From assembly GCA_030615745.1 (NCBI GenBank), contig JAUWYR010000042.1, forward strand, positions 1 through 22,142: a DNA stretch of 22,142 bases. Reading direction: 5' to 3'. The position numbers were made by a program, and so were the translations under genes. The notes below the pieces were generated by a model. It saw nothing but the letters and a program-made list of their open reading frames with translations. It was not told the origin of the DNA and searched no databases. Numbering within the stretch: position 1 is the first letter of the stretch; every line of letters begins with the position of its first letter. The DNA comes from Candidatus Zixiibacteriota bacterium. GTDB lineage: Bacteria > Zixibacteria > MSB-5A5 > SM23-73-2. Of the stretch, positions 7,532 to 22,142 are shown one piece after another.

Positions 7532-7837
7532 ATGTTTGAAATTGCTAATGCAATGGGAACACAAGGTGGCCAGGAGGGTGGAAGTCTTTTAGTTTGGCTA
7601 CCTTGGATTTTGATATTTTTGGTATTTTATCTTCTCTTGATCCGTCCTCAGCACAAACGTCAAAAGGAGCATCAAAAGATGCTTTCAATTTTGAAAAAAG
7701 GAGATAGGGTTGTAACGAATTCAGGGATGTACGGAACCATTGTGGGTATAAATGATAAGGAAAACATCGTGGTTTTAAAAGTGGCGGAGAATGTAAAGAT
7801 TGAGTTTTTGAAAACCTCAATAGCAGGAAAGGCGTGA
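7532..7837 (+). CDS. yajC: Preprotein translocase subunit YajC
   Basis: A 101-residue single-pass inner-membrane protein that associates with SecDF-YidC. After a short glycine-rich N-terminus it has one transmembrane helix at about 19-37, immediately followed by the family hallmark LIRPQHKRQKEHQKML (36-51). A small beta-rich cytoplasmic domain follows, with KKGDRVVTNSGMYGTIVGI, as in all YajC proteins. The ATG at 7532 has a good ribosome binding site, AAGGAGAG. It follows tgt by 40 bases. secD and secF, normally next, are absent; def starts right after, its possible GTG start overlapping the yajC stop. Confidence 0.95.
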   Translation: MFEIANAMGTQGGQEGGSLLVWLPWILIFLVFYLLLIRPQHKRQKEHQKMLSILKKGDRVVTNSGMYGTIVGINDKENIVVLKVAENVKIEFLKTSIAGKA

Positions 7838-7857
7838 AAAGAGGAGTAGATTATTTT

Positions 7858-8373
7858 ATGGTGTTAAAAATAAGAACATATGGTGACCCGGTATTGAGGG
7901 AGAAGTGCAAAAAGGTTGAAAAAATCGATGATAGTATAAAAAAGCTGGCCTCGGATATGCTTGAGACTTTGAAAAGTGTGGGAGGGGTTGGATTGACAGC
8001 TAATCAGGTGGGTGAACCTAAAAGGGTATTTGCGGTGGATAGGTCCCGCTTTTTATTGGATGAACCCCCTCTGGTTGTGATAAATCCTGAGATAGTTGAA
8101 AAAAAAGGAAAACAAATTGCTGAGGAAGGATGTTTATCCATACCAGGTATATGGGCAGATGTCACCCGTCCTCTCAAACTTAAAATAAAAGGAATTGACC
8201 TTGATGAAAAAGAGATAGAGATAGAAGGTGAGGGGATTTTGTCGAGGGTTCTCTCTCATGAGATTGACCATTTGAATGGGCTTTTTTTCGTGGATAGGTT
8301 GAGCTCAATTGAAAAAAGACTCCTTTCGAAAAAGCTTAAACAGATAACTCAGAAAAAAGATATAACATATTAA
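7858..8373 (+). CDS. def: Peptide deformylase
   Basis: A metalloenzyme that removes the formyl group from the first methionine of new proteins. From the ATG at 7858 it has 171 residues, and the start MVLKIRTYGDPVLREK matches the usual deformylase N-terminus. Motif 1 is GVGLTANQ (43-50), with Thr in place of the common Ala. Motif 2 is EEGCLSIP (89-96), with the metal-binding Cys. Motif 3 is HEIDH (134-138), with both metal-binding His and the catalytic Glu. A GAGGAG ribosome binding site lies at 7841-7846. A longer form from GTG at 7834, which overlaps the yajC stop as GTGA and has AGGAAAGG before it, would add eight residues; I prefer the shorter one because it fits the family. fmt, its functional partner, lies 151 bases downstream. 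Confidence 0.95.
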   Translation: MVLKIRTYGDPVLREKCKKVEKIDDSIKKLASDMLETLKSVGGVGLTANQVGEPKRVFAVDRSRFLLDEPPLVVINPEIVEKKGKQIAEEGCLSIPGIWADVTRPLKLKIKGIDLDEKEIEIEGEGILSRVLSHEIDHLNGLFFVDRLSSIEKRLLSKKLKQITQKKDITY

Positions 8374-8471
8374 TCGCTTAAAATTTTAAAAATACAAATA
8401 ATTTTTTTCTGATTTTATTTATATTTTATTTAAAGACTGTTTTTTTAAGTTTTCAAAATCAAATTTGGATG

Positions 8472-8500
8472 TTGACCGCTTCATTTTAAGTTAATATCTT
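8472..8500 (+). promoter_or_regulatory. Putative sigma-70-type promoter for fmt
   Basis: TTGACC at 8472-8477 and TATCTT at 8495-8500 are separated by 17 bases, and lie 25 bases before the fmt start codon. The gap 8374-8524 between def and fmt is very AT-rich and shows no terminator hairpin. The match to the -35 is five of six and to the -10 four of six. Sequence-only prediction. Confidence 0.5.
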
Positions 8501-8524
8501 ATTAAAACCCGAAGGAACTTCGAT

Positions 8525-9472
8525 ATGAGAATTGTCTTCATGGGAACACCTGAGTTTGCCTTACCATCTCTGGAAGCATTGGTAAGATCGGAACATGAAG
8601 TTGTTGGAGTGGTTACCCAGCCTGACCGACCTAAAGGAAGAAGAAGAAAACTGTCACCCACACCGGTGAAGGAATATTGCCTTAAAAATAATCTTTTGGT
8701 TTTAACACCCGAGAATTTAAAATCGGATGATTTTGTAATCCAGCTAAAAGATCTAAAGCCTGATTTAGCTTTGGTCGTAGCATTTCGCATCCTTCCTGAG
8801 AAGGTTTTTTCAATTCCTCCTAAAGGGACCATAAACCTTCATCCCTCTCTTTTACCCAAATACAGAGGTGCAGCCCCTATCAACTGGGCTATAATCAATG
8901 GAGAGACCAAAACAGGGATAACAACTTTTTTCATTCGTAAAAGAGTCGATACCGGAAATATAATTTTGCAAAGGGAAGTAGATATTGCGCCTGATGAGAG
9001 TTTTGGTGAGCTTTCAAAAAGATTAGCTTTGATTGGTGCGGATCTTTTAATCGAGACAGTTGAATTGATTGAAAAAGGTGAGGTAAAGACTTTCACTCAG
9101 GATGAAACTCAGGCAACTTCAGCGCCAAAGTTGACCCCTGATATCGGAAAAATAGAATGGTCAAGAAAAGCAGAAGAGATAAAAAATCTGATAAGGGGAC
9201 TTTCCCCTCTCCCAGGAGCATACACTTTCTTCGAGGGGAAGCGTTTGAAAATCTTTCGGGCAGAAGTTATCGAAGATCAAGAGATTGACAGAAAAGACGT
9301 TACACAAGGCTTTGGCGAGGTGACATCCGCTGATAAAAATCAAGGAATTGTGGTCAAAACAAAAAGGAAAGAATTAAAATTGCTTTTGCTCCAACCCGAA
9401 GGCAAAAAAAAAGTTACAGCGGATGAGTTTTTAAGGGGTTACAGAATCAAGGTCGGTGACAAGCTCGGTTAA
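8525..9472 (+). CDS. fmt: Methionyl-tRNA formyltransferase
   Basis: A 315-residue enzyme that formylates initiator Met-tRNA using 10-formyltetrahydrofolate. The N-terminal formyltransferase domain (about 1-205) starts MRIVFMGTPEFALPSLEAL. Asn104 and His106 in INLHPSLLPKYRGAAPINW, and Asp142 in VDTGNI, are the expected catalytic triad. The C-terminal tRNA-binding domain (about 208-312) includes the linker and GEV segments. AFRILP (86-91) replaces the more common AYG-ILP loop, a modest variant. The ATG at 8525 follows AAGGAA at 8512-8517, which lies inside a small hairpin (8510-8522). The next gene starts five bases after the stop. Confidence 0.97.
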   Translation: MRIVFMGTPEFALPSLEALVRSEHEVVGVVTQPDRPKGRRRKLSPTPVKEYCLKNNLLVLTPENLKSDDFVIQLKDLKPDLALVVAFRILPEKVFSIPPKGTINLHPSLLPKYRGAAPINWAIINGETKTGITTFFIRKRVDTGNIILQREVDIAPDESFGELSKRLALIGADLLIETVELIEKGEVKTFTQDETQATSAPKLTPDIGKIEWSRKAEEIKNLIRGLSPLPGAYTFFEGKRLKIFRAEVIEDQEIDRKDVTQGFGEVTSADKNQGIVVKTKRKELKLLLLQPEGKKKVTADEFLRGYRIKVGDKLG

Positions 9473-9477
9473 TTAAA

Positions 9478-10242
9478 ATGGAGAAAACTGAAAGTAATAA
9501 GTCGATTTTTATTTTCCTTTCAATTTTAAGTTTGGTTGTTCTTCTTTGCTTTTCTTTTCTTTTCTGGTATCTTATCGAGCCGAGGATAGTATCTTTTTCT
9601 AAATACGTTGCTTTTGGGGTGAAAATCGGGTTAGGTATTTTCATTTTAGGTGTTAGCGGTGGTCTTTTTTTAATTGTTCTCTCCGCTTTAACAGAAAAAG
9701 ATTTTCTCATCCCTTATGGAAAAAAGCAGATCACCTTAAAAGTCCTTTTCCCTATCAATTTACTTTTAGCAAAATTTTTTGGATGGCCCAAGGGAAAAGT
9801 CATAGAATCTTTTGTGGAGGTTAACAACTCACTTTTTAAGGCTGCAAAAAAAAGGATAAAAAATGACAGGGTCTTAATTCTTCTGCCCCAATGTTTGCAA
9901 AAATTCGATTGTCCTCATAAGGTAACAGCTAATATCGATAACTGTAAAAGATGCGGTGAATGCTTAATTTGTGACATAATCGAGCTAAAAGAAAGGTATA
10001 ATCTATCATTAGCAATTGCTACTGGAGGAACTCTGGCTCGTAAGGTAGTTGTGGAAAACAGACCAACAGTCATTGTGGCTGTCGCATGTGAAAGGGATCT
10101 TACCTCTGGTATCCAGGATGTCTTCCCCATACCTGTTTATGGTATTTTAAACCAAAGGCCTTTTGGTCCCTGTGTTAACACAAAAGTTAATATGAAGAAA
10201 TTGGAGAGCGTTATAAAATTTATTTTGAATGGAGTTGGATAA
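9478..10242 (+). CDS. DUF116 membrane-anchored cysteine-rich protein
   Basis: A 254-residue member of the DUF116 family, function unknown. Two hydrophobic helices at about 9-33 and 46-70 anchor it. The rest is probably cytoplasmic. Eight cysteines occur: Cys139 and Cys145 (PQCLQKFDCP), Cys156, 159, 162 and 165 (NCKRCGECLICD), Cys204 (VACERDL) and Cys232 (FGPCVNT). The CxxCxxCxxC run looks like a ferredoxin-type cluster ligand set, which is inference. The ATATGG (180-185) and VAVACERDLTSGI (200-212) stretches are family-typical. DUF116 genes have been seen near fmt in other bacteria as I recall, so this pairing may be meaningful. It begins five bases after fmt without a clear ribosome binding site and overlaps or abuts the RNase G gene. 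Confidence 0.85.
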   Translation: MEKTESNKSIFIFLSILSLVVLLCFSFLFWYLIEPRIVSFSKYVAFGVKIGLGIFILGVSGGLFLIVLSALTEKDFLIPYGKKQITLKVLFPINLLLAKFFGWPKGKVIESFVEVNNSLFKAAKKRIKNDRVLILLPQCLQKFDCPHKVTANIDNCKRCGECLICDIIELKERYNLSLAIATGGTLARKVVVENRPTVIVAVACERDLTSGIQDVFPIPVYGILNQRPFGPCVNTKVNMKKLESVIKFILNGVG

Positions 10243-10243
10243 T

Positions 10244-11761
10244 ATGAAGAGGGACATAATAATAAATGTTTCACCATTTGAGACTCGCTTAGCTATTTTG
10301 GAGGATGATAAGCTTGTGGAGCTCTGGGTGGAAAGACCGGAGAAAGAAAGGATGATTGGGGATATTCATAAGGGTGTGGTTAAGGCTGTTTTCCCTGGAA
10401 TGCAGGCTGCTTTTATCGATATTGAAACAGAAAAAAATGCATTTCTTCACCTGTCCGATATCACCCAGCCACCAAAGCTTGAGGGTTTAGAGGGATATCC
10501 TCAGAGAAAAAGAAGAAATAAACTTCATTTTAAGATCGAGGAGGTTTTAAAAAAGGGGCAAGAAATTATAGTTCAGGTGATAAAGGAGCCTATGGGTTCA
10601 AAAGGTGCCAGGGCGACCACATCTTTATCTCTGGCAGGAAGATATGTGGTTTTAACTCCAGGAGAAAATCACATTGCAGTATCGAGGAAGATAACTGAGC
10701 TGGAGGAGAAAAAAAGGCTTAAAAGGATTGTCTCTGAGATGAAGCCCGAAGGTTTTGGCCTGATCGTAAGGACTGTTGCTTCTGGAAAGGATAAAAGGGA
10801 TTTTAAATCGGACATCAGGGCTTTGACCAGATTATGGCAAAGGATTAAAAAGAAAGCTGAGAAGAAAAAAGCTCCAGCACTTCTGCATCAGGATATCGGG
10901 ATGGTCTTTTCGGTGATGAGGGACCTTTTATCTCCTCAGGTAAGGGAGGTGGTGATCGATTCAAAAAAAGAGTATAAAAGGATACTATCATATCTGAGAG
11001 CTATTGCCCCGGCTATGCGTTCCAAGGTCAGGTTTTATGATAAGGAGATTCCCATCTTTGATTTTTACAACATAGAAACTCAGATAGGTAAGATGCTTGA
11101 TCGCAAGGTTTGGGTAAAAAAAGGAGCTTATATTGTTATCGATCAGACCGAGGCTATGGTTACAATCGATGTGAACACCGGAAGATATGTTGGAAAATCA
11201 GACCAGTCCTCCACCATACTTAAGGCTAATCTCGACGCAGCCAGAGAGATCGCCAGGCAGATAAGGTTACGTGATATCGGGGGCTTAATCGTAGTTGATT
11301 TCATCGACATGAATTCAAAGGAGGATAGAAAAAAAGTCTACGATGAATTCAGGGCAGTTTTAAAAGCTGACCGTTCAAAATCGAGCATTCTTCCCATCTC
11401 CGATTTCGGCTTAATCGAGATGACCAGAGAGAGGGTGAGGCCATCTCTGATCTATACCTTTTCTGACCTCTGTCCCACCTGCGGTGGATCTGGAAGGGTC
11501 CTGTCCCTCAAGACCCTGGCAGTAAAAATAGAAAGATGGTTTAAAAGGGTAAAAGTGCTCTCTGTTCAAAAAGAGTATAAACTATTTGTCTCCCCTGATT
11601 TAGCAAAGATTCTAACTGAGGGGAGAAAAAGCAGGATAAAAAATCTTGAAAAAGAGTTAAAGCTGAAAATCGGGGTAGAGGAAAACGACGAAATTCCTTC
11701 AGATAGCTTCAAGGTTTTCACCGATGATGATTTGGAGGTAACTGATAAGTTCAAGGTGTAA
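10244..11761 (+). CDS. rng: Ribonuclease G/E family endoribonuclease
   Basis: A 505-residue endoribonuclease of the RNase E/G family, used in rRNA maturation and mRNA decay. It has the length of RNase G; the long C-terminal scaffold of RNase E is missing. An S1 RNA-binding domain occupies about 35-125, interrupted by a basic RKRRNK insert. The DNase I-like catalytic core has Asp309 (VTIDVNTG) and Asp352 (LIVVDFIDM), matching the metal-binding aspartates of RNase E. The zinc link CPTCGGSG (Cys410, Cys413) is intact. The ATG at 10244 has GGAG at 10231-10234 and gives the family-typical start MKRDIIINV; an ATG at 10229, inside the DUF116 end, would add five residues. Cotranscription with fmt and DUF116 is likely. 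Confidence 0.93.
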   Translation: MKRDIIINVSPFETRLAILEDDKLVELWVERPEKERMIGDIHKGVVKAVFPGMQAAFIDIETEKNAFLHLSDITQPPKLEGLEGYPQRKRRNKLHFKIEEVLKKGQEIIVQVIKEPMGSKGARATTSLSLAGRYVVLTPGENHIAVSRKITELEEKKRLKRIVSEMKPEGFGLIVRTVASGKDKRDFKSDIRALTRLWQRIKKKAEKKKAPALLHQDIGMVFSVMRDLLSPQVREVVIDSKKEYKRILSYLRAIAPAMRSKVRFYDKEIPIFDFYNIETQIGKMLDRKVWVKKGAYIVIDQTEAMVTIDVNTGRYVGKSDQSSTILKANLDAAREIARQIRLRDIGGLIVVDFIDMNSKEDRKKVYDEFRAVLKADRSKSSILPISDFGLIEMTRERVRPSLIYTFSDLCPTCGGSGRVLSLKTLAVKIERWFKRVKVLSVQKEYKLFVSPDLAKILTEGRKSRIKNLEKELKLKIGVEENDEIPSDSFKVFTDDDLEVTDKFKV

Positions 11762-11849
11762 ATAAAAGTTTTTTAGCTTCGAAAACAAAATCTTAAGTTT
11801 TTTTAAAGAAACCAATAGCTTCTATCCTGCGTATTCAAACTAAATTGAC

Positions 11850-11877
11850 TTGACTTGTATCTAAATAGTGATATATT
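11850..11877 (+). promoter_or_regulatory. Putative strong promoter for rplU operon
   Basis: TTGACT at 11850-11855 and TATATT at 11872-11877 are separated by 16 bases. A second TTGACT overlaps just upstream at 11845-11850 (21-base spacing, so less suitable). The -10 lies 30 bases before the rplU ATG, leaving a short leader that ends in AAAGGAGAAG. It is the clearest promoter in the window and fits the need of a ribosomal protein gene. The 146-base gap after rng has no convincing terminator. Confidence 0.6.
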
Positions 11878-11907
11878 GTTATCCGTATCAAAAAAAGGAG
11901 AAGTTAT

Positions 11908-12222
11908 ATGTATGCTGTAATTGAGACAGGTGGATTCCAATTCACTGTTAAAGAGGGTGAAAAACTAAAAATACCAAAAATCTCAGCAAAACCAAAAGAA
12001 AAAATTTCTTTTGATAAAATACTTTTGATATCAAAAGATAATGACCCTATTATTGGAACTCCATTTATAAAGGGAGCTAAAATCGAGGCAGAGGTCTTAA
12101 ACCACGGAAAAGATAAAAAGATAGTGGTTTTTAAGTTTAAAAGAAGGGTGAAATACAGAAGGAAAAAAGGGCACCGTCAAGATTTCACAGAGGTTCAGAT
12201 CAAAAAGATCAACCTTCCTTAA
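11908..12222 (+). CDS. rplU: 50S ribosomal protein bL21
   Basis: A 104-residue protein with the bL21 hallmarks: start MYAVIETGGFQFTVKEGEKL, middle IIGTPFIKGAKIEAEVLNHGK, and the basic VVFKFKRRVKYRRKKGHRQDFTEV-type end (key residues K, R, Y, H, Q) that binds 23S rRNA. Normal length. Ribosome binding site AAAGGAGAAG sits at 11894-11903. rpmA (bL27) almost always follows rplU in bacteria, but here the next start codon, two bases on, belongs to bamA. No bL27 frame exists in the window. Confidence 0.97.
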   Translation: MYAVIETGGFQFTVKEGEKLKIPKISAKPKEKISFDKILLISKDNDPIIGTPFIKGAKIEAEVLNHGKDKKIVVFKFKRRVKYRRKKGHRQDFTEVQIKKINLP

Positions 12223-12223
12223 A

Positions 12224-14635
12224 ATGAGAAACACGCTTTTAAATAAAATGAAAAAGAATATAATTTTTTTCCTTTTATTTTTTCTTTTCATAAGCTTATC
12301 ACCCTCATATTCACAAAAACCCTTGATCTCTGAAATCGACGTCGAAGGAAATATCACTGTGGATAGGTCTTTAATCATCAATATGTCCGGCTTAACCAGG
12401 GGAATGAAAATAGATACCTACCTTTTACAGGATGTTATCAAAAGAATACATAATATGGGATATTTCTCAGATGTGCAGATAAAGGGGGAGGAAACCATAG
12501 ATGGAAAAAAGCTTATCATAGCTGTCAGAGAATATCCGAAGCTTGAAGAGATTCAGATAAAGGGTAACAAAAAAATTAAATCTGAGGATATCAAGGAGAA
12601 GTTGAGAGTATATGAAGGTCAAATGATAAGTCCCTCACAGATAAAAGAGGAGGTTAAAAATATCAAATCACTTTACGAGGAGAAGGGGTATCTTTTAGCT
12701 ATCATAGAATCTGAGGTTTTGGGCACAGAAAAAAAAGGTGAGGTTATTTTAAAATTCAATATCGATGAGGGCAAAAAAGTAAAGATTAAAAAGATAGAAA
12801 TTGAGGGGAATAAGGTATTTAGTGATGGCAAGATCAGGAAACAGATGAAAAACAAACAGGATAGTTTCTTCAGAAGCGGGAGTTTCAACTCAGAGGAGTA
12901 TGAGAAGGACAAAGAAAGGGTAGTGCAATTTTACAAAAAAAAAGGATATTTGGATGCTGAGATTATCTCTGATTCCATCTGGTATAGTCCTTCCAAAAAA
13001 AAGATGTATATAAAACTTCAAATCTATGAAGGGGATAAATATCATTTTGGAGAGGTAAGCTTTTCAGAGAATGTGCTTTTCTCTTTTGATGAATTAAAAG
13101 ACCAGCTCGAATTTGAAATCGGTGAGGTCTACAATCAGGAGAAGTTCGATAAAAGCTTAGCTGATCTTCATTCGATTTATATGGAAGAGGGATACATTTA
13201 TGTTAGGGTCCTGGATAATATTAGCACAAAAGGGAGCAGAGTTGATATAAGATACCAGATAACTGAGGGAGCTCCTGCCAGGGTTCATAAAATCGATATC
13301 GAGGGTAATACCAAAACCAAAGAGAAGGTGATTAGAAGGGAGCTTTTTATAAAGCCTGGGCAGATTTTCAGACGTTCGCTTTTAATGCGAAGCTTAAGGG
13401 ATGTTACCTATCTTAACTATTTTTCCAATGTTATTCCGGATTATAAAGTTTTAGAAAATGGTGATATAGATTTGATAATAAAAGTTGAGGAGAAGTCAAC
13501 TGGTCAGGTCTCCTTCGGAGCAGGATATAGTGAGAGGGATAAGCTTATTGGCACAATTGGGCTTGGAACCCCTAACCTTTTTGGAAATGGGCAACAGCTT
13601 CAATTAAACTGGGACTTTGGAAAAAGGAAAAACTCTATACAGTTAAGCTTCACCGAGCCATGGTTTAGGGATACACCCACATCGGTTGGCTTTGATATTT
13701 ATAATCTTAATCGTAGATGGTATACTGATTTCACAGAAGGGAGACGTGGTCTTTCCTTCAGATTGGGAAGGAGGCTTACCTGGCCAGATAATTACTTCAC
13801 CATTTTCTGCCGCTACCGGATTGAAGATGTCAAATACTATGATTTTCAGACATACGATGGGAATGTAGTTAGAGAATGGAGACATCTTGCTGAGATCAAG
13901 TGGCCACAAAGAACCTCGAGTTTCGATTTCACAATTCAGAGAGATTCCCGTGATTTACCTCAATTCGCAACCTCAGGGTCAAAAGTTTTCTGGAGGGCTG
14001 AGTTTGCTGGTGGAATATTAGGCGGGGACTGGTCATATCATAAACATATTTTCGAGGCTTCAAAATTTATCAAGACTCTCTGGAAATTTGTCTTGGCTAT
14101 AAAGGGAAGAGTGGGTATAATAGATGCTTATAGCCTTGATACGAAAATACCTTATAACCACACATTTCCTGCACTTTTGCCCGGAGGTCATACTCTCGAA
14201 TATCCTTTTAAGGAGGTGATAGTTCCTTACTCAGAGAGGTTTTCGCCCGGAGGAGTAGACCCGGATGGAGTGATAAGAGGATATCCTGATGGAGCAATAG
14301 GACCTATTGGTCCACTCGGTTACAGAATTAGGGGGAGAAGTGTTCTGGTCTATAATATAGAATACCAATTCCCTATTGTGGAACAGCAGATCTATGCACT
14401 TCTTTTAGCTGATTTCGGAAATGCCTGGCTCACTGGACGACAGATTCAGCCTTTTGCTTTTAAAAATCTCTACAAGTCACTGGGTTTTGGAGTGAGGTTG
14501 GTAGTCCCCGGCATGGGAATTATCGGGTTTGATATGGCTTATGGGTTCGACTATAACAGCTTAGGTGAACCTGATGTTAAAGAGAGAGACCATGGTGAAT
14601 GGAGACCCCACTTCAATTTCGGAACAACATTTTAA
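12224..14635 (+). CDS. bamA: Outer membrane protein assembly factor BamA (Omp85)
   Basis: An 803-residue Omp85 protein that inserts beta-barrel proteins into the outer membrane. A signal peptide covers about 1-31 (hydrophobic core IIFFLLFFLFISL). Five POTRA-like domains can be placed at about 35-105, 107-182, 186-270, 274-348 and 352-424; several begin with the ISEIDVEGN / IKKIEIEGN / VHKIDIEGN pattern. The 16-strand barrel fills 428-803. The conserved loop-6 motif is IRGY at 684-687, and the protein ends in Phe, as outer-membrane barrels do. The ATG at 12224, one base after the rplU stop, has no ribosome binding site; start by coupling is likely. ATG 12248 (MKKNIIFF) is an alternative that keeps the signal peptide. 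ompH and lpxD follow in classical order. Confidence 0.95.
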   Translation: MRNTLLNKMKKNIIFFLLFFLFISLSPSYSQKPLISEIDVEGNITVDRSLIINMSGLTRGMKIDTYLLQDVIKRIHNMGYFSDVQIKGEETIDGKKLIIAVREYPKLEEIQIKGNKKIKSEDIKEKLRVYEGQMISPSQIKEEVKNIKSLYEEKGYLLAIIESEVLGTEKKGEVILKFNIDEGKKVKIKKIEIEGNKVFSDGKIRKQMKNKQDSFFRSGSFNSEEYEKDKERVVQFYKKKGYLDAEIISDSIWYSPSKKKMYIKLQIYEGDKYHFGEVSFSENVLFSFDELKDQLEFEIGEVYNQEKFDKSLADLHSIYMEEGYIYVRVLDNISTKGSRVDIRYQITEGAPARVHKIDIEGNTKTKEKVIRRELFIKPGQIFRRSLLMRSLRDVTYLNYFSNVIPDYKVLENGDIDLIIKVEEKSTGQVSFGAGYSERDKLIGTIGLGTPNLFGNGQQLQLNWDFGKRKNSIQLSFTEPWFRDTPTSVGFDIYNLNRRWYTDFTEGRRGLSFRLGRRLTWPDNYFTIFCRYRIEDVKYYDFQTYDGNVVREWRHLAEIKWPQRTSSFDFTIQRDSRDLPQFATSGSKVFWRAEFAGGILGGDWSYHKHIFEASKFIKTLWKFVLAIKGRVGIIDAYSLDTKIPYNHTFPALLPGGHTLEYPFKEVIVPYSERFSPGGVDPDGVIRGYPDGAIGPIGPLGYRIRGRSVLVYNIEYQFPIVEQQIYALLLADFGNAWLTGRQIQPFAFKNLYKSLGFGVRLVVPGMGIIGFDMAYGFDYNSLGEPDVKERDHGEWRPHFNFGTTF

Positions 14636-14653
14636 ATTTCAGGAGGGAAAAAT

Positions 14654-15190
14654 ATGCTAAAAAAAACTTTTTTGACTTTCCTTTTTACTCTGTTTTTTGG
14701 ATTGCTTATACTCTCTGGGCTTTCCTTTTCCCAGGAGGGAAGGCTTGGCTATATTGATTCGATGAGGTTGAGAACTGAGTATAAGGAGTTTACTGAGGCT
14801 CAGGCGAAATTTGATAAGGAAGTCATATCCTGGGAAGCACAGGCGGACTCAATGAAAAAAGAGATCGACAGCCTCGAGGCGGATTTAGATAATCTAAAAT
14901 TGATTTTATCAGAAGAAAAAAAGAAAGAAAAAGAGGAGTTTTTGGAGACAAAAAAGCTTGCGTATCATAAATTCACCGAGGATATTTTTGCACCTAATGG
15001 AAAAGTTGAAAAAAGGAACGCTGAGTTGACCAAGCCAATTTTGGATAAGATAAATAAAGTTTTGGAAAAAATAGCGCTTGAGAACAATTTCGATATAATC
15101 TTCGATTCGGTTAACGGGAATATCGCCTATGCCAAAAAAGCACTTGATTTAACAGATAAGGTCTTGGAAGAGCTGGAGAAGTTAGAATAA
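14654..15190 (+). CDS. OmpH/Skp-family periplasmic chaperone
   Basis: A 178-residue periplasmic protein of the OmpH/Skp family, which shields unfolded outer-membrane proteins on their way to BamA. The signal peptide is about 1-27, with a likely cut after SFSQ or nearby. The mature start [11 protein letters not shown] is the family's first strand. A long charged coiled coil runs about 42-125 (the Skp tentacles), and [25 protein letters not shown] (128-153, key hydrophobic I/L/F positions) is the typical end of the trimerisation body. The ATG at 14654 has GGAGGG at 14642-14647. It sits between bamA and lpxD, as in many Gram-negative bacteria. Confidence 0.9.
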
Positions 15191-15191
15191 A

Positions 15192-16256
15192 ATGGAAAAA
15201 ACACTTAAGGAAATAGCTTTATTTGTTGAGGGGAAGCTTGTCGGTATCGATCAAGAGATGGGTGGTAAGGAGGTTAAAATAAAAGGTCTTTCTGGAATAG
15301 AGGAGGCTGGTCCTGGAGATTTAACCTTTTTGGCTAACCCTAAATATAAGAATTTTTTGGACAAAACCAAAGCTTCTGCTGTGATCGTTGGTGAGGATAT
15401 CGGTATCGATCAAGAGATAGAAAAGTCGAGGATCCCAGTAATCAGATGCAAAAATCCTCGTTTTGCCTTCTGTAAGGTTATGGAGCTTTTCTTTCCCCCA
15501 CAAAAAATATATCCTGAAAAAATCGATAAAACATCTGTTTTGGGAAAAGATGTAAAAATAGGTAAAGGTATCTATATCGGACCTTTTGTGGTTGTTGAAG
15601 ATAACGTCGAAATAAAAGATGATGTTGTTATTATGGCTGGCTCTTTTATCGGCAAGAATTCTACACTTAAAGAAAACTCGATTATTTATCCTAACGTGAC
15701 CATAAGGGAGGATGTAACCGTAGGTAAGAATGTTGTAATTCACAGTGGAACAGTTGTCGGAGCAGATGGGTTTGGATATGCTTTTGAATCGGGAGTCTAT
15801 CATAAAATTCCTCAGGTGGGCAAAGTCCAGATCGATGATTTTGTTGAGATAGGAGCCAATGTATGCATTGATAGAGCCACTTTAGGGACAACGAAGATTG
15901 GCAAGGGGACAAAGATCGACAATTTAGTCCAGATCGGACACAATGTGAAGATTGGAGAAAATACAATAATTGTAGCCCAGGTTGGAATCTCAGGAAGCAC
16001 CCGGATCGGCAACAACGTTATCATAGCAGGACAGGCTGGATTTGTTGGTCATATAGAGATAGGTGATCGTGTGGTTGTAGGTGCACAATCAGGTATCTCC
16101 AAGGATATTCCCTCTGATACTGTGGTATTCGGATATCCAGCCAGGGAGGCAAGAAAAGCTAAAAAGATAGAGGCATGTATTTCCAATCTTCCCAAATGGG
16201 TTAAAAGGGTAAGTGAGTTGGAAAAGAAAATAAAAGAGATCGAAAAAAAACATTGA
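15192..16256 (+). CDS. lpxD: UDP-3-O-acylglucosamine N-acyltransferase LpxD
   Basis: A 354-residue cytoplasmic acyltransferase that adds the second acyl chain in lipid A synthesis, using acyl-ACP. The N-terminal uridine-binding domain (about 1-105) has [21 protein letters not shown]. The left-handed beta helix (about 108-315) is built from hexapeptide repeats. His250 in QIGHNVKIG is the likely catalytic base. GADGFGYAF (190-198), KIPQVG and IDRATLGTT (226-234) are LpxD-specific. The end is a lysine/glutamate coiled coil. The start ATG at 15192 lies one base after the ompH stop, with GGAG at 15175-15178 rather far upstream. fabZ and lpxA, frequent followers, are absent. Confidence 0.97.
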
Positions 16257-16281
16257 TTTTTTTTAATCCGAGGAGGTTAAT

Positions 16282-16608
16282 ATGAGCGAGACTATTGAAT
16301 TAACAGATGATACTTTTGAAGATGAAGTTCTGAAATCGAATAAACCAGTAATAGTTGACTTCTGGGCTCCCTGGTGTAGCCCTTGCAGGCTGGTTTCACC
16401 GGTGGTGGAGGAGCTTGCCACCGATTATCCTGATAAACTTAAAGTTGGTAAACTGAACGTGGATGACAACTCCAAGATCGCATCCCAATATGGAATAATG
16501 AGTATTCCCAGTATCCTTTTTTTCAAGGATGGAAAACTTGTGGATCAGGTTATTGGTGCAGTTCCAAAATCTTATTTGAAGGAAAAGGTAGATAAAATCT
16601 TAGGATGA
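16282..16608 (+). CDS. trxA: Thioredoxin
   Basis: A 108-residue cytoplasmic thioredoxin that reduces protein disulfides. The active site is WCSPC (Cys32, Cys35) in place of the standard WCGPC; serine at that place is an uncommon but seen variant and may shift the redox potential. VDFWAPWC, LNVDD (62-66) and cis-Pro80 in SIPSILFF are intact. No signal peptide. The ATG at 16282 has a strong GAGGAGG site at 16269-16275. The stop overlaps the next start as ATGA, so both proteins are made together. Confidence 0.95.
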   Translation: MSETIELTDDTFEDEVLKSNKPVIVDFWAPWCSPCRLVSPVVEELATDYPDKLKVGKLNVDDNSKIASQYGIMSIPSILFFKDGKLVDQVIGAVPKSYLKEKVDKILG

Positions 16609-17033
16609 AAACAGAAGCTAAAAGATTTGAGAACCCAAAAGATGAAAAGATTAAAGAGATTTTGGCAAACTCAAGAAATATTGCTGTGGTCGGGCTTTCA
16701 CCAAATCTATCACGTCCATCTTTCTGGGTGGCAAATTATCTTAAAAAAAACAACTTCAAGATAATCCCAGTAAACCCTAAATATCAACAGATTTTAGGAG
16801 AGAGAGCTTTTCCTAAGTTGACTGATGTTTTAGAAAAAATTGATGTTGTGGATATATTTCGCAGTCCTGAGTATGTTATGCCTGTGGTTGAGGACGCTAT
16901 AAAAATTAAGGCGAAGGTTATCTGGATGCAGGAGGGTGTGATAAATTTTGAAGCCGCAGAAAAGGCTAAAAAGAATAATATTTTGGTTGTTATGGACAGG
17001 TGTATTTCCAAGGAGCACAAAAGACTGTTTTAG
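16605..17033 (+). CDS. CoA-binding domain protein (YccU-like)
   Basis: A 142-residue single Rossmann-fold CoA-binding protein. It carries IAVVGLSPNLSRPS (26-39) as the nucleotide loop, IPVNPKY (54-60), VDIFRSPE (82-89), IWMQEGV (106-112) and the terminal DRCISKEHKR (131-140), whose Cys133 matches the conserved DRC-EH motif of the family. Family members bind CoA, and their physiological role is poorly defined. The gene overlaps the thioredoxin stop by four bases (ATGA). The pairing with a thioredoxin suggests, but does not prove, a role in CoA or thiol redox. A heptamer array begins directly after its stop codon. Confidence 0.88.
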   Translation: MKTEAKRFENPKDEKIKEILANSRNIAVVGLSPNLSRPSFWVANYLKKNNFKIIPVNPKYQQILGERAFPKLTDVLEKIDVVDIFRSPEYVMPVVEDAIKIKAKVIWMQEGVINFEAAEKAKKNNILVVMDRCISKEHKRLF

Positions 17034-17096
17034 ATTCAAGATGCAAGTGACAAGATGCAAGGGTTAAGGGGCAAGATGCAAGGGGCAAGGGTTGAA
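17034..17096 (+). repeat. Heptamer tandem array after CoA-binding protein gene
   Basis: Nine gapless 7-bp units follow the stop codon: ATTCAAG, ATGCAAG, TGACAAG, ATGCAAG, GGTTAAG, GGGCAAG, ATGCAAG, GGGCAAG, GGTTGAA. Eight of nine end in AAG and six of them in CAAG preceded by a variable triplet. It is the second heptamer array in the window and, like the one at 942-990, starts at a stop codon. This opens a 357-base stretch without a gene. Confidence 0.7.
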
Positions 17097-17108
17097 AATC
17101 AGAGGTTA

Positions 17109-17132
17109 GTGAAGGGTACCCTTACCCTTCAC
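17109..17132. repeat. Perfect 10-bp inverted repeat
   Basis: GTGAAGGGTA at 17109-17118 and TACCCTTCAC at 17123-17132 flank a CCCT loop. It could end the rplU-to-CoA-binding transcript, but no T-run follows directly (the next bases are CATTTTAAC), so a Rho-independent terminator is only a weak possibility. The loop continues the GGGTA/TACCC theme of the neighbouring heptamers. Confidence 0.6.
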
Positions 17133-17198
17133 CATTTTAACTAAATTTCACAAGTTTTTTTCTTATCTTTAATTGATTTTATAAAACTTCAATTTACG

Positions 17199-17270
17199 GC
17201 GGGATGAATTCCCGCTACTATGAAGTGTTGAGAAGTTTTGCGGTCATAGAGCGGGGAATTTATCCCCGCT
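17199..17270. repeat. Paired inverted hairpins, REPIN-like element
   Basis: Two related palindromes face each other. The first is GCGGGA-TGAAT-TCCCGC (17199-17215). The second is AGCGGGGA-ATTTA-TCCCCGCT (17250-17270). The reverse complement of the first closely matches the second, so they are inverted copies 34 bases apart, and TATGA/TCATA flank the spacer. This is the layout of REPINs (two REP sequences in inverted order). No transposase of the RAYT type is in the window. The rest of 17133-17390 is AT-rich with no other clear feature except a weak dyad at 17311-17340 followed by a T-run. Confidence 0.65.
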
Positions 17271-17420
17271 AAATAATTATCATCAAGAATTTTTCTTTTT
17301 ATTCTTAGCTTGGATTATCGATGAAAACAAATCCACCGATTTTTTTCTAACCCCATTTAATTAATCCAATTTCAAAATATCAGGTAATCTTTGATTCAAC
17401 CGATACGTATAATAGATAAA

Positions 17421-18224
17421 ATGAGCTATTACCACAGAACATATGATTGGGGCAGAAGAAGGTGGACTAAAGGTGTTAAAAGGCTTATTATTATAAATGT
17501 AGTTATATGGCTTTTGATGCTGGTTGGTTACAATTTGCTCACCCCCTTTGGTCTTACCCCCACTTTAGTTAAAAAAGGATATATCTGGCAACTTTTCACC
17601 TATATGTTCCTTCACGGTGATTTTTTCCATATACTTTTCAATATGTTCATTTTATGGATGTTTGGAAGATCTATCGAGGAGGAATGGGGGACAAAAGAGT
17701 TTGTGAAATACTATTTTATAACCGGCATAGGCGCAGGAGTCTTCACCTTCATCCTCTCGATAAACTCATCTATCCCAACAATCGGAGCCTCCGGCGCAAT
17801 TTTCGGAATACTGGTGGCTTATGCTATGATGTTCCCTAACAGCTTAATCTATGTCTGGTTTTTGTTCCCGGTCAAGGCAAAATATTTAGTTATGTTTTTT
17901 GCTATCCTTGAGCTAATTGCATCGGTGAGATATACTCCTGATGGGATCGGGCATTTCGCTCACTTAGGAGGAATGGTGGTGGGATATCTTTATCTTAAAT
18001 CTGACCGGAGATTATTCGGTTTCCTTAAGTTTTTTAAAAAAATCAAATATAAAAAGAAACTGAGAACAGTTCATAAGAAAAGGGAAAAAACAGAGGAGTT
18101 GATGAAAAGGGTTGACCAGATATTGGACAAGATAAATCAGGTGGGATATGATAACCTATCCAAGGAGGAAAAAAAGATTTTAGAGAAAGCCAGCCACATC
18201 CTTTCAGATGAACAAAGTGGCTGA
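17421..18224 (+). CDS. Rhomboid-family intramembrane serine protease
   Basis: A 267-residue polytopic membrane protease that cuts transmembrane substrates. Six hydrophobic helices lie between about 20 and 193. Catalytic Ser124 is in GASGAIFG, catalytic His181 in GHFAHLGG, and the oxyanion-region His65, His70 and Asn74 are in LHGDFFHILFNM. The cytoplasmic tail has a basic stretch (205-222) and an acidic helical segment, DQILDKINQVGYDNLSKEEK (232-251), a small conserved module found at the end of many such rhomboids. I choose ATG 17421 (MSYYHRTYDW), the start type seen in related proteins. TTG 17391, with CAGG upstream, would add ten residues. A TATAAT at 17408-17413, eight bases before ATG 17421, would allow a leaderless transcript but lacks a -35. 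Confidence 0.93.
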   Translation: MSYYHRTYDWGRRRWTKGVKRLIIINVVIWLLMLVGYNLLTPFGLTPTLVKKGYIWQLFTYMFLHGDFFHILFNMFILWMFGRSIEEEWGTKEFVKYYFITGIGAGVFTFILSINSSIPTIGASGAIFGILVAYAMMFPNSLIYVWFLFPVKAKYLVMFFAILELIASVRYTPDGIGHFAHLGGMVVGYLYLKSDRRLFGFLKFFKKIKYKKKLRTVHKKREKTEELMKRVDQILDKINQVGYDNLSKEEKKILEKASHILSDEQSG

Positions 18225-18257
18225 GGTGTAGCCAGCATATGCGTATGCATTCATACG
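18218..18257 (+). promoter_or_regulatory. Two adjacent small hairpins before response regulator
   Basis: TGGCT (18218-18222) pairs with AGCCA (18230-18234), and CGTATG (18242-18247) pairs with CATACG (18252-18257). The first overlaps the rhomboid stop. The second ends eight bases before the GGGAGGA ribosome binding site (about 18265-18271). They could modulate readthrough or translation of the response regulator, but no T-run follows either. Weak evidence. Confidence 0.3.
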
Positions 18258-18275
18258 AAAAAAAGGGAGGATGCT

Positions 18276-19193
18276 ATGCCAAAAAAGATTTTGGTTGCAG
18301 ACGATTCTTTTGCCATAAGGAGTGTGGCAGAATCCCTTCTCAGTCAAAAGGGATATGAGGTCCTGTGTGCCAGCAATGGCGCAGAAGCGTGGGAATTGAT
18401 CAGGATGACAAAACCTGATCTTATTTTTTTAGATCACTCCCTGCCAGATCTGGAAACAGACAAAATCTGTGAAAAGATAAAAAAACAGAGTGATTTAAAA
18501 GATATACCTGTAGTTGTTCTTCTGGGAACTAATGAGGTTAAAAAGCAGGGTAAGTTTAAAGATTTAGGAGTGGACGCTTTTGTGCTCAAGCCTTTTACAC
18601 CAAAGGAATTTTTAACGAAAGTTGAGCTTTTTTCTGAGTTGAAGCCTTCTTCTGAACAAAGATCATCTGAAAAAAAAGAAGAGAAAAAAACCCAGGTTCA
18701 CGGATATGACTGGTTCATCTCAGAGATGAAAAAGGAGATGGGGCAGGTTCTGCCTGAAAAGTCTTTTGATGAGCAAAAAGATAAAAAAGAGTCAACTGAG
18801 GAAATTGTTCTAAATCAAGACTTAGAGAAAAAAGCTCTTTCACAGGAAAATGACAAAGAATTCAAGGTGAAGGAGCTGGATTCTCGAAAAGAAGGCTATG
18901 ATAACTTCATCTTTGAGCAAAAAAAACAAGATAAAAAAGACCTCACAACCCAAGAGGTGGTTTACACTGAACTTAAATTCGATGATGAGCCAGAAAAGAA
19001 AAGGTCTGAACAAAAAAATGCGAAGCATCCTTCGAAGAGGTCTTTGGATGTGACCTTTTCAGATTTCGATTACAAAGAGATAACAGATAAATTGGTTGAG
19101 CAGATCTCCACCAAAATAGCAGAAAAAATCGCCTCTATGATCGATAGAAAGGTTTTAGAGGAGGAGATAAAAAAGAGACTGGGGGAGTTTTAG
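18276..19193 (+). CDS. Response regulator receiver protein with unique C-terminal tail
   Basis: A 305-residue protein. Residues 1-120 are a complete receiver domain: acidic pair Asp9/Asp10, phosphorylation site Asp53 (FLDHSLP), Thr85 and Lys105 (LKPF). The remaining 185 residues match no output domain I know. About 125-260 is lysine/glutamate-rich and probably disordered, and carries two copies of one motif, GYDWFISEMKK (143-153) and GYDNFIFEQKK (207-217). The last ~38 residues (268-305) form an amphipathic helix with regular I/L/V spacing. No DNA-binding, kinase or GGDEF domain is present. The ATG at 18276 has a strong GGGAGGA site. No histidine kinase gene is nearby. It may be a signalling adaptor; function is unknown. 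Confidence 0.85.
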   Translation: MPKKILVADDSFAIRSVAESLLSQKGYEVLCASNGAEAWELIRMTKPDLIFLDHSLPDLETDKICEKIKKQSDLKDIPVVVLLGTNEVKKQGKFKDLGVDAFVLKPFTPKEFLTKVELFSELKPSSEQRSSEKKEEKKTQVHGYDWFISEMKKEMGQVLPEKSFDEQKDKKESTEEIVLNQDLEKKALSQENDKEFKVKELDSRKEGYDNFIFEQKKQDKKDLTTQEVVYTELKFDDEPEKKRSEQKNAKHPSKRSLDVTFSDFDYKEITDKLVEQISTKIAEKIASMIDRKVLEEEIKKRLGEF

Positions 19194-19228
19194 GAATTTA
19201 AATCAAGCATCTAACCTTTCTGTGGAGT

Positions 19229-19337
19229 GTAAACCTTCAGGTTTACTTGGTCAAGCGACAGCTTGACCTAACTTGCATATGTGGAGTGTAAACCCTTCAG
19301 GCTTACAAGTCAAGCTAAAGCTTGACACTCCATATGC
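19229..19337. repeat. Two copies of a nested palindromic element (TGGAGTGTAAAC type)
   Basis: Both copies start TGGAGTGTAAAC. Copy one: GTAAACC-TTCA-GGTTTAC (19229-19246) then GGTCAAGC-GACA-GCTTGACC (19249-19268). Copy two: a diverged GTAAACCC-TTCA-GGCTTAC (19288-19306) then GTCAAGCT-AA-AGCTTGAC (19309-19326). Copy two is also closed by an outer repeat, GCATATGTGGAGTGT (19275-19289) against ACACTCCATATGC (19325-19337). This is part of a 502-base region (19194-19695) without a credible gene. Confidence 0.7.
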
Positions 19338-19380
19338 TTCTTGAGTGTGCGAAGTCTCTTGACCTTCGGCATCTTGACGA

Positions 19381-19436
19381 TAAACCTTTCCTGGCCGGAC
19401 AGGCAGGTTTACAAAAAAATAAAGCTAAAGCTTTAT
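19381..19436. repeat. Palindromes TAAACCT/AGGTTTA and ATAAAGCT/AGCTTTAT
   Basis: TAAACCT (19381-19387) pairs with AGGTTTA (19405-19411), with inner CCTG/CAGG (19390-19393, 19400-19403). ATAAAGCTAA-AGCTTTAT (19419-19436) follows and continues into ACTCCA. The same AAAGCT...AGCTTTATACTCCA ends bracket 19549-19594. They share the ACTCCA end with the copies at 19229-19337, so they look like shortened members of one family. Confidence 0.55.
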
Positions 19437-19461
19437 ACTCCAAATTACTTTTTTAAAGTGC

Positions 19462-19516
19462 CTGTCGGGTCCCCAGACCCGACAGACCTATCCCGCCAGG
19501 TCGGGGACCTGGCGGG
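19462..19516. repeat. Doublet of strong GC-rich hairpins
   Basis: CTGTCGGGTC-CCCA-GACCCGACAG (19462-19485) and CCCGCCAGGTC-GGG-GACCTGGCGGG (19492-19516) are perfect 10-bp and 11-bp stems six bases apart, in otherwise AT-rich DNA. Neither is followed by a T-run. Their base composition and pairing suggest an inserted repeat unit, REPIN-like, not a terminator. Confidence 0.7.
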
Positions 19517-19548
19517 CACAAATTGATGACCACCAAGTTTGCTAAAAG

Positions 19549-19594
19549 ATAAAGCTGAAGTTATTGTCACACTTAGACTGAGCTTTATACTCCA
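19549..19594. repeat. ATAAAGCT...AGCTTTATACTCCA inverted repeat
   Basis: ATAAAGCT at 19549-19556 and AGCTTTAT at 19581-19588 form 8-bp ends around a 24-base spacer, and the right end continues to ACTCCA. It matches the 19419-19436 palindrome with a longer loop. A tandem decamer (TCGGTATCTT, TCGGTATCTC) follows at 19601-19620. Confidence 0.5.
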
Positions 19595-19695
19595 GTATAT
19601 TCGGTATCTTTCGGTATCTCAAATTTAGCTGAGTAGGCAAGGTAAATTTTTCAATAGGCTTTCCGTATTAATAATATAGAATCGGAGGATTTGTA

Positions 19696-20442
19696 TTGGG
19701 TGCTGAGCTAAAAGACATCACTATTTTTATCGCCTTTTTAGGGGGAATAATCTCATTTGTCTCCCCCTGCGTTCTGCCATTAATCCCCGGCTATCTTTCG
19801 TTTATCTCCGGGGTTTCAATCGAAGAGATGAAGGATAAAACTGAGAAAGCTAAGGTTACCAAAAAGGTAGCAATGAATTCTTTGTTTTTCATCTTTGGAT
19901 TTTCCGTTGTCTTTATTTTACTTGGCGCCTCCTCCACATTCTTAGGAAATTTCATCTTAGCACATAAGTTCACTTGGTTCAATAAAATAGCAGGTGGGAT
20001 AGTTATCCTCTTCGGATTGCATCTTTTAGGCGTTTTCAAAATATCATTTCTGAACTATGAGAAAAGATTTCACATAAGACGAAAATCATTCGGAATCTTG
20101 GGCTCATTTTTGATCGGCTTTGCCTTTGCTTTTGGCTGGACACCCTGTGTTGGACCAATCTTAGCTCCTATCTTAGGAATGGCTGCTTTAAAAGAGAGCG
20201 TTATGCAAGGTATTTTGCTTCTGGCTTTTTACTCTTTGGGTTTGGGTATCCCATTTTTCATCGCGGGAATAGGGTTCAACACTTTTTTAAGAGTTTTTCA
20301 AAAAGTAAAAAGATATTTTAATATCATCGAGATAATAAGCGGTCTTTTTCTAATTGGAGTTGGTCTTTTGATCTTCACCAATTCTTTTTTCTATTTAGCT
20401 GGTCTTTTAACAAGATTGTTTCCCGGGCTAACAGTGGGATGA
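19696..20442 (+). CDS. ccdA: CcdA-type cytochrome c biogenesis / thiol-disulfide transporter
   Basis: A 248-residue polytopic protein of the CcdA/DsbD-beta family, which carries reducing power from cytoplasmic thioredoxin across the inner membrane. The two redox cysteines are Cys25 in SPCVLPLIPGY and Cys151 in GWTPCVGP, each next to proline as in the family. Six hydrophobic segments are visible at about 8-40, 60-85, 96-118, 132-160, 168-195 and 205-245. The start is TTG at 19696 with a strong GGAGG site at 19684-19688. No cytochrome c maturation partner (resA, ccsB) or DsbD periplasmic domain is nearby. The thioredoxin at 16.3 kb is a plausible electron donor, which is inference. Confidence 0.92.
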   Translation: MGAELKDITIFIAFLGGIISFVSPCVLPLIPGYLSFISGVSIEEMKDKTEKAKVTKKVAMNSLFFIFGFSVVFILLGASSTFLGNFILAHKFTWFNKIAGGIVILFGLHLLGVFKISFLNYEKRFHIRRKSFGILGSFLIGFAFAFGWTPCVGPILAPILGMAALKESVMQGILLLAFYSLGLGIPFFIAGIGFNTFLRVFQKVKRYFNIIEIISGLFLIGVGLLIFTNSFFYLAGLLTRLFPGLTVG

Positions 20443-20479
20443 CTTTTTATTGCTTGTCCAAACAAAATAAACCCAATAC

Positions 20480-20539
20480 GTAGGGGAGACCCTTGTGGTC
20501 TCCCGCTGGCAGTCGGGAGGGGACAAGCCCCTCCCCTAC
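20480..20539. repeat. Nested palindrome doublet, GTAGGGGAG type
   Basis: GTAGGGGAG (20480-20488) and CTCCCCTAC (20531-20539) close a 60-bp unit. Inside are GGGAGACC-CTTGT-GGTCTCCC (20484-20504) and GGGAGGGG-ACAAG-CCCCTCCC (20515-20535). The two loops, CTTGT and ACAAG, are reverse complements. It lies in the 288-base gap between ccdA and the DUF362 gene. The unit resembles dispersed GC-rich repeats I recall from other bacterial genomes. The rest of the gap is AT-rich with a TATAAT at 20697-20702 that may be a -10 for the DUF362 gene (weak TTCATA 18 bases upstream). Confidence 0.65.
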
Positions 20540-20751
20540 AGAAAAATCCGAAGGATCTTGACGATTTGCATTATTTAATTGGAATGGTATTACCTATGTT
20601 TTTTATCAATGAATTTAAAAAATCTTTAATCTATTTTTCTTTTGTCTGTAAGCTGGGCAGGTAATGAAAATATTCATAAACTTTTGTCCGACAAGTTATA
20701 ATATAGACGTTCAGTTCATCTAAACAAATTTTGAATTATTTCGAGCCTTCT

Positions 20752-21678
20752 ATGAGAAAGATTTCAAGAAGAGATTTTATAAAAAGTTCAATTGGCTTGG
20801 CAACAACCACGCCTTTTTTAGCTTTCAATCTTGAAAAAAACTTAGCTGAGATCGAAAAAGAACTGGTGGAGTTCCCTGATTTAGCTGTTGTTACCAATGG
20901 AGAGCCGAAAGATCTAACAAGAGGAGCGCTTGAGCTTTTAGGTGGGATGAAAAGGTTTGTTTCAAAAGGTGATATAGTTGTTGTCAAGCCGAATATTGGC
21001 TGGGACAGAAATCCAGAGCAAGCAGCAAATACCAATCCTGAAGTTGTGGCTGAGATTGTCAGACTATGTCTTGACGCAGGGGCAAAAAAGGTCAAGGTTT
21101 TCGACCGTCCCTGCAACACCGCATCGAGATGTTATGAGAACTCTGGGATAAAAAAGTCCGCATCTGAGGCTGGAGCTGAGGTAAGCTATGTGGTTGATTA
21201 TGGTTTTGTCAAAACCAAATTCCCGGAGGGGATAAAGTTGAAATCCTGGGAGATATATAAGCCCGCCTTAGATTGCGATCTTTTGATCAATGTCCCTGTT
21301 GCCAAGCATCACAGCCTTACGAGATTGACCTTGGGAATGAAAAACCTTATGGGGATAATGGGAGGTGACAGAGGAAAAATTCACTGGAACATCGATGAGA
21401 ATTTAGCTGACCTTTCAAATTTCGTAAGACCTAAATTGACAATATTGGATGCTGTCAGAATTCTTATAAGAAACGGTCCCCAGGGTGGTAGGTTAAAAGA
21501 TGTCAAAAAGATAGATACAATCGTTGCAGGTGAAAAGGTTGCCTCAGTGGATGCTTATGGTGCAACCCTTTTTGGATTGAGTCCTTCTGATCTGGGCTCT
21601 GTCAAACTCGGAGAAAAGCTCGGCTTAGGAGAGATAGATTTTAAAAAACTCTGGATTAAAAAAACAAGCCTCTCTTAA
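20752..21678 (+). CDS. DUF362 protein with Tat signal
   Basis: A 308-residue DUF362-family protein. The start MRKISRRDFIKSS has the twin-arginine motif (Arg6, Arg7) followed by a weakly hydrophobic stretch to about 26, so the folded protein is probably exported or membrane-tethered. Family features are VVKPNIGWD (77-85), NTNPEVVAEIV (93-103), AGAKKVKVFDRP (109-120), LINVPVAKHH (178-187) and MKNLMG (197-202). Cys106, 121, 127 and 175 are scattered, and there is no ferredoxin domain of the kind some longer DUF362 proteins have. ATG 20752 is chosen since the Tat motif falls right behind it; TTG 20731 would add seven residues. The next gene, 17 bases on, encodes a polyferredoxin-like protein, suggesting a redox unit. 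Confidence 0.88.
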   Translation: MRKISRRDFIKSSIGLATTTPFLAFNLEKNLAEIEKELVEFPDLAVVTNGEPKDLTRGALELLGGMKRFVSKGDIVVVKPNIGWDRNPEQAANTNPEVVAEIVRLCLDAGAKKVKVFDRPCNTASRCYENSGIKKSASEAGAEVSYVVDYGFVKTKFPEGIKLKSWEIYKPALDCDLLINVPVAKHHSLTRLTLGMKNLMGIMGGDRGKIHWNIDENLADLSNFVRPKLTILDAVRILIRNGPQGGRLKDVKKIDTIVAGEKVASVDAYGATLFGLSPSDLGSVKLGEKLGLGEIDFKKLWIKKTSLS

Positions 21679-21695
21679 AAGGGGGTAAATTTTTT

Positions 21696-22142
21696 ATGAG
21701 AACTCTCAGGAGATTCACTCAGATTCTTTTTTTTATTTTTTTTATACATCTTTTCTTTTCCGCAAGCTACCCTTTAACTTCAAAAATACCAATTGACCTT
21801 TTTTTGCGAGCTGACCCTTTGATTGCTATTTCATCAATTGTTTCCTCACGTGCTTTTATCAATAAATTTACCATAGCATTTATCTTAGTTCTTTTAACCA
21901 TTCCCTTAGGAAAATTCTTCTGCGGTTGGGTCTGTCCTCTGGGAACAGCTCTGGATGGGGTTAGTTATCTAACCAAGAACAAGATTGGAAAAAGTATAAA
22001 AAAACTTCAAACTTTAAAATATTATATTTTAATATTTTTATTAATCGGAGTCTTATTCTCATCCCAGTTAGTCTGGTTTTTAGATCCTATTGCTCTTTTG
22101 AGCAGAAGTTTGACTTTATCGGTTTTCCCCATTGTTACACTT
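21696..22142 (+). CDS. NapH/polyferredoxin-like membrane 4Fe-4S protein (partial)
   Basis: The frame opens at ATG 21696 and runs to the window edge without a stop (149 codons). A GGGGG element lies at 21681-21685. Residues about 8-25, 57-75 and 109-126 are hydrophobic helices. FFCGWVCPLGTALD (75-88) is the motif of the NapH/CcoG-type membrane polyferredoxins, next to a membrane helix, and WFLDPIALLSR (127-137) is also typical of this group. The 4Fe-4S ferredoxin cysteines expected near the C-terminus would lie beyond the window. Together with DUF362 it likely forms a membrane electron-transfer pair; the partner redox reaction is unknown. Confidence 0.85.
   Translation, partial: MRTLRRFTQILFFIFFIHLFFSASYPLTSKIPIDLFLRADPLIAISSIVSSRAFINKFTIAFILVLLTIPLGKFFCGWVCPLGTALDGVSYLTKNKIGKSIKKLQTLKYYILIFLLIGVLFSSQLVWFLDPIALLSRSLTLSVFPIVTL

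Follow-up and report, generated by a model that had tools for sequence, protein, structure and literature searches.

Two REP families tagged GGAG and GTGC make up a probable RAYT-associated island in an intergenic slot of a Candidatus Zixiibacteriota genome

The tag of REPs that go with a RAYT is given as GT[A/G]G, that of class 3 as CnGA, and residues W94, Q95, E100, H101 and R104 of the E. coli enzyme belong to its GTAG-recognition region (PMC2817692, PMC3686654, PMC6006769, PMC8266576); the systems studied depend on the GTAG tag to recognise REPs, and in E. coli this tag tolerates no substitution (PMC8266576). Two subclasses of TnpA-Y1 proteins are also relevant here: subclass 2.8, with the signature NHYH, W[YH] and YIHYNP, reported in Cyanobacteria with GT[AG]G tags (PMC6006769, Quentin et al.), and subclass 2.6 (group 5 of Bertels), with NH[LIV]H, WQ and YIH[QN]NP and flanking 'atypical secondary structures'. 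In the texts searched, GGAG was absent as a REP tag, which is not proof of its being undescribed, and one literature search on such palindromes in this candidate phylum found no paper.

The island described here lies in a window of 22,142 nt (the whole stretch of DNA analysed, contig C59) from a genome of 2.28 Mb in 74 contigs, and is best explained as a cluster of two RAYT-associated REP families of the REPIN/BIME type (probability about 0.87). Its units resemble the REP/REPIN/BIME elements of RAYTs (TnpA-REP) of group 3 or subclass 2.5 in being short hairpins with a 5' tetranucleotide tag, present as singles and as inverted doublets, and in being intergenic, multicopy and found on both sides of RAYT genes. 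They differ in their tags, which are GGAG (family 1) or GTGC (family 2) and not GTAG or GTGG, and in the AT-rich stems and four-hairpin composites of the GGAG family. Since neither tag fits GT[A/G]G, we file them as a variant and not as canonical REPs. CGTC-tagged palindromes (PMC3733652) are likewise tagged and form inverted dimers, but have another tag and apparently no dedicated transposase. Mobile DNA of this kind is known; the novelty lies in the GGAG tag, in the RAYT clade that goes with it and in the recognition residues altered in that clade.

All palindromes named in the original prediction are present in the gap between a response-regulator gene and a gene coding for a DsbD/CcdA-type membrane protein; the remainder of the window (1-19200 and 19640-22142) contains no comparable island. 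The island lies after the stop codon and before a leader shared with relatives, which it leaves intact. The features are as follows (a dot means that no strand is assigned).

18276-19193, strand +: upstream gene with a response-regulator domain (ORFs, Pfam)
19194..19695, strand.: intergenic slot holding the island, 502 nt (ORFs, Pfam, gene order kept in order-level relatives)
19223..19332, strand.: element I, four-hairpin composite REPIN of 110 nt, TGGAGT ... ACTCCA (homologous copies in contig C37 and in G001; DNA fold)
19224..19246, strand +: element I, GGAGT head and hairpin A (GTAAACC TTCA GGTTTAC), one of 77 pattern units in the genome
19249..19268, strand.: element I, hairpin B (GGTCAAGC GACA GCTTGACC)
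19282..19306, strand +: element I, second GGAGT head and hairpin C (GTAAACC CTTCA GGCTTAC, one mismatch)
19309..19331, strand -: element I, hairpin D (GTCAAGC TAAA GCTTGAC) and ACTCC, an inverted GGAGT unit (pattern match C59:19309-19331)
19341..19442, strand.: element II, second composite, TTGAGTGTGCGAAG... (decayed head) ... AAAGCTAAAGCTTTATACTCCA
About 19348-19372, 19379-19412 and 19419-19436: hairpins of element II
19458..19519, strand.: GC-rich doublet with GTGC and GCAC at its ends, made of two GTGC-tagged hairpins in inverted orientation (CTGTCGGGTC..GACCCGACAG, CCCGCCAGGTC..GACCTGGCGGG)
19549..19594, strand -: element III, decayed GGAG half-element (ATAAAGCT ... AGCTTTAT ACTCCA; direct repeats D1-D3)
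19643..19689, strand +: leader 5' of the dsbD-type gene, outside the repeats (TAAATTTTTC..TTCCGTATTAATAAT resembles L198, L199, L200 and L205 by eye)
19696-20442, strand +: downstream gene coding for the DsbD/CcdA-type membrane protein (ORFs, Pfam)

The right end of element II reads TATACTCCA, and element III is akin to it through the direct repeats D1-D3, while the left part of element II is repeated at four loci of the same genome (L003, L005, L006 and L015) with 94-100% identity (BLASTN). Where two or three families had been proposed, we recognise two: the AAAGCT/AGCTTT palindromes turned out to be the right-hand hairpins of GGAGT...ACTCC elements. The island also contains six sigma-70-like sites (1.1 expected), several of which overlap the repeated TATACTCC/TACACTCC ends.

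A BLASTN comparison of the island with its own genome gave 64 matches, so that the repeats are multicopy and the single-copy state that would have refuted the prediction does not hold. GGAGTGTAAACC was found at 84 sites when at most one mismatch was allowed (12 in the reversed control), the stem-neutral pattern GGAGTG-N6-TTYA-N6-C at 77 sites (reversed control, 1) and the GTGC pattern at 18 sites (control, 0). Only 3 of 41 GGAG units fell within an ORF of at least 120 aa, compared with 77% of positions drawn at random from these loci, and the 77 and 18 units are thus multicopy, mainly intergenic short palindromes, as REPs and REPINs are. The GGAG was preceded by T in 38 of 41 units, and the next base out was C or T in 36. 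No inverted partner was present within 150 nt for 22 of the 41, and direct repeats of at least 3 nt occurred at the borders of one dimer out of 21 (0.63 expected by shuffling), which is no excess; unpartnered units without border repeats fit REPs rather than transposons with terminal inverted repeats and target-site duplications. In the same-genus genome G001 about ten copies of the four-hairpin element occur; the genome studied has two that are clear (the window and C37) and, by eye, another in C12. In one GGAG element of this genome (L039, 1501-1598), the hairpins GCACGAAT..ATTCGTGC and GCACAGAT..ATCTGTGCCTAC are enclosed, and these look like a nested GTAG-tagged REP.

GGAG units exceeded the control in all same-order relatives except G010 (n=10, same genus included; 11 to 84 units), and genomes outside the order had 0 to 5, and among the hits listed for these most lack complementary arms. 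Folded as single-stranded DNA and compared with 200 dinucleotide shuffles, element I (19222-19333) and the GC-rich doublet (19455-19522) reached z-scores of -5.6 and -8.2, element II (19340-19443) reached -2.9, and element III (19540-19596) was no better than shuffles (-0.7). The arms of the GGAG units, which comprise 13 stem types, were perfectly complementary in 67 of 77 cases, a proportion that fell to 12.6% when arms were swapped between copies. Over the 28 distinct sequences, pairing was found in 92.9% of cells and the stem covariation score reached 0.70 (0.18 for shuffled and at most 0.125 for slid alignments); the GGAG units thus show the conserved hairpin with compensatory stem changes that is typical of REPs and REPINs.

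A transposase encoded outside the window had been suggested as the possible mover of the repeats, and a search of the genome for RAYTs found three Y1 genes (L061, L062 and L063), all above the NCBIfam RAYT cutoff (NF047646, 102.7-145.2 bits, cutoff 80). Among named genomes, the best matches of L061 belong to Candidatus Zixiibacteriota. L061 is flanked by GTAG-tagged hairpins (1272-1294 and 1869-1891), as is L063 (993-1028, 1417-1444 and 1984-2009), the hairpins of the two being unlike each other, and L062 is flanked by GTGC-tagged GTGCTGGATT..AATCCAGCAC. In the GTGC family, the hairpins that make up the doublet occur in inverted orientation, as GTGCTCGCCAGGTCCCCTGACCTGGCGAG and GTGCCCGTCGGGTCCCCCGACCCGACGG, on either side of the RAYT L109 of G004, a genome of the same order. 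In the final tree L062 groups with L109, L096 and L103 (support 94/90). This group also holds L085, for which no tag was seen, and L095, which has a GTAG hairpin nearby, so that the GTGC label does not strictly denote one clade. The four GTGC-flanked RAYTs share NH[LI]H and mostly YIHNNP with subclass 2.6, but three of the four have E or D after the W; the likeness is drawn from motifs.

The GGAG family is linked to a RAYT lineage of other genomes. In G001, a sister species in the same genus, the RAYT L098 (801-1541) is flanked by three full copies of element I-type composites, and in a first tree the RAYTs of G001, G002, G009 and G010 that have GGAG-tagged flanks fell into a single clade. A profile built from the four proteins retrieved further members in G005, G008, G009, G040 and G130, among which L267 and L271 have clear GGAG-tagged pairs in their flanks, L270 one clear GGAG hairpin, L272 decayed ones and L276 one weak one; L274 and L275, which fall outside the clade, have GTAG tags. 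The final tree unites the nine GGAG RAYTs in a single clade (support 100/97) that is recovered in all bootstrap trees. RAYT genes with the same inverted GGAG hairpins on both sides thus occur in G001 (L098), G005 (L267), G009 (L113) and others. In the genome of the window GGAG hairpins do not flank a RAYT in this way, and a profile from four RAYTs found no GGAG-clade gene in its incomplete 74-contig assembly. Transposases of the kind suggested do exist elsewhere in the genome, as three RAYTs, but none of them is of the GGAG clade. Flank stems in G002, G005, G009 and G010 are unlike the common GTAAAGC/GTAAACC units, and with a close match in G001 only, no exact cognate RAYT was found for the commonest GGAG units. 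The number of units is not tied to whether the gene is there: the genome studied and G006 have 77 and 74 units with the gene undetected in both, and G010 has a single GGAG-pattern unit despite its GGAG-clade RAYT gene. A GGAG-clade RAYT gene of G008 (L272/L277, C134:10406-10943) is split across two frames with a stop and is apparently decaying. No GGAG-clade RAYT was found among viral contigs; the best plasmid hit (Kovacikia minuta) was a RAYT of the WQ type that has a GTAG-tagged hairpin and falls outside the group, and a wider search around G130 returned the same class and added nothing.

NF047646 scores cover the three RAYTs of the genome studied, and the GGAG-clade proteins were judged by motif residues. 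Of the HuH motif, the second H is present in 8/8 and the first in 7/8; Y115 and N119 are present in 9/9. Where the E. coli enzyme has Q95, eight of nine members have an aromatic residue or H (30 of 33 GTAG-type proteins have Q). H101 is lost in all nine (26 of 33 GTAG-type proteins keep H), and all nine have a deletion of one residue between Q95 and H101; W94, D100 and mostly R104 are kept. The losses at the Q95 and H101 equivalents thus fall within the GTAG-recognition region of the E. coli enzyme. Most GGAG-clade RAYTs share with subclass 2.8 the NHYH motif and a W followed by an aromatic residue or H, and several have YIHYNP; subclass 2.8 itself was reported from Cyanobacteria with GT[AG]G tags, and the assignment made here is by motifs.

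Taken together, these data suggest that RAYT transposases (TnpA-REP, HuH/Y1) would recognise 5'-tagged hairpins in single-stranded DNA, cut them and copy them in trans, the tag presumably acting as guide sequence. Family 1, tagged GGAG(T), is often arranged in inverted head-to-head pairs (GGAGT-hairpin ... hairpin-ACTCC), here including the 110-nt four-hairpin form, and family 2, tagged GTGC, in GC-rich doublets, each family being associated with a separate RAYT lineage; both would have piled up in one intergenic slot, moved, now or in the past, by RAYTs in trans. In this genome the GGAG family may now lack a cognate RAYT, the state expected after RAYT loss. That the elements are mobile we infer from their copy number and pairing, from their association with RAYTs and from the differing content of one orthologous slot. 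The small non-autonomous units of the original prediction are recovered in this picture as multicopy, intergenic, often inverted pairs with RAYT-type transposases elsewhere, their movement being deduced.

Symmetric elements with TGGAGT/ACTCCA ends, of which there are many, could also be MITEs, small elements with TGGAGTGT...ACACTCCA as their terminal inverted repeats and with an ordinary DDE transposase, encoded at another place, as their mover. This reading is already largely refuted and very improbable, as about half of the units are single, with a tag and one hairpin but no inverted partner, the 21 dimers show no excess of border direct repeats indicative of target-site duplication, the stems covary within units, and the tag tracks a RAYT clade. 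Scarcely more probable is that the hairpins, instead of being mobile DNA, regulate the flanking genes as RNA, in the manner of a terminator, attenuator or riboswitch. Their strong folds between two co-oriented genes speak for it, as does the effect that REPs elsewhere can have on transcription termination and mRNA stability (PMC6006769), but no terminator-like site was found in the island, no Rfam family reached its gathering threshold, dozens of copies lie in other places, and the orthologous slot lacks them in G004 and holds another REP family in G008, the hairpins at the slot not being conserved across the species compared. A match to preQ1-III over the doublet (19438-19537) scored 34 bits against a gathering threshold of 63; it was absent at four other doublet loci and was rejected.

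Unlikely, though less so than either of these, is that one of the three RAYTs present in the genome, and not a lost GGAG-clade RAYT, moved the GGAG elements. About 30 nt separate an inverted GGAGT pair from the REP on the 3' side of L061, and the hairpins flanking L063 share the stem start GTCAAG with one GGAG stem type; however, the flanks of L061 and L063 are GTAG-tagged and those of L062 GTGC-tagged, all three proteins fall outside the GGAG clade, and L061 and L063 retain the GTAG-type WQ..(D)H..R motif. Within the preferred reading of two RAYT-associated REP families, the chances are about even that a RAYT lineage exchanged GTAG for GGAG as its guide tetranucleotide through the changes at the Q95 and H101 equivalents and the one-residue deletion between Q95 and D100, with the REP tags changing in step, and that the GTGC lineage represents a second such switch. 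Copies of both GGAGTGC and GTAGTGC accompany the RAYT L112 of G010, linking the GGAG and GTAG tags. If true, the switch would be a natural reprogramming of single-strand DNA recognition, and a monophyletic GGAG RAYT clade with an altered guide-recognition motif offers natural variants for testing the co-evolution of tag and protein.

The gene order rhomboid, response regulator and dsbD-type gene is conserved in several order-level relatives, on which the comparison of the slot rests, as the dsbD-type gene was unmatched in G001. With this gene order, the slot of G004 is about 130 nt long and has no REP, and that of G008 contains GTAG-tagged REPs instead. In G006, too, GTAG-tagged REPs lie 5' of the dsbD-type gene; there, no response regulator was found next to that gene. 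The GTAG REPs of G008 (L199) and G006 (L198) have a stem, GTGCGACCCTTTAGGGTCGC, that resembles the hairpins flanking the RAYT L106 of G008. In G008, GTGC- and GGAG-tagged units also occur close together at four places (contigs C66, C109, C111 and C149), no more than about 200 nt apart, as in the window.
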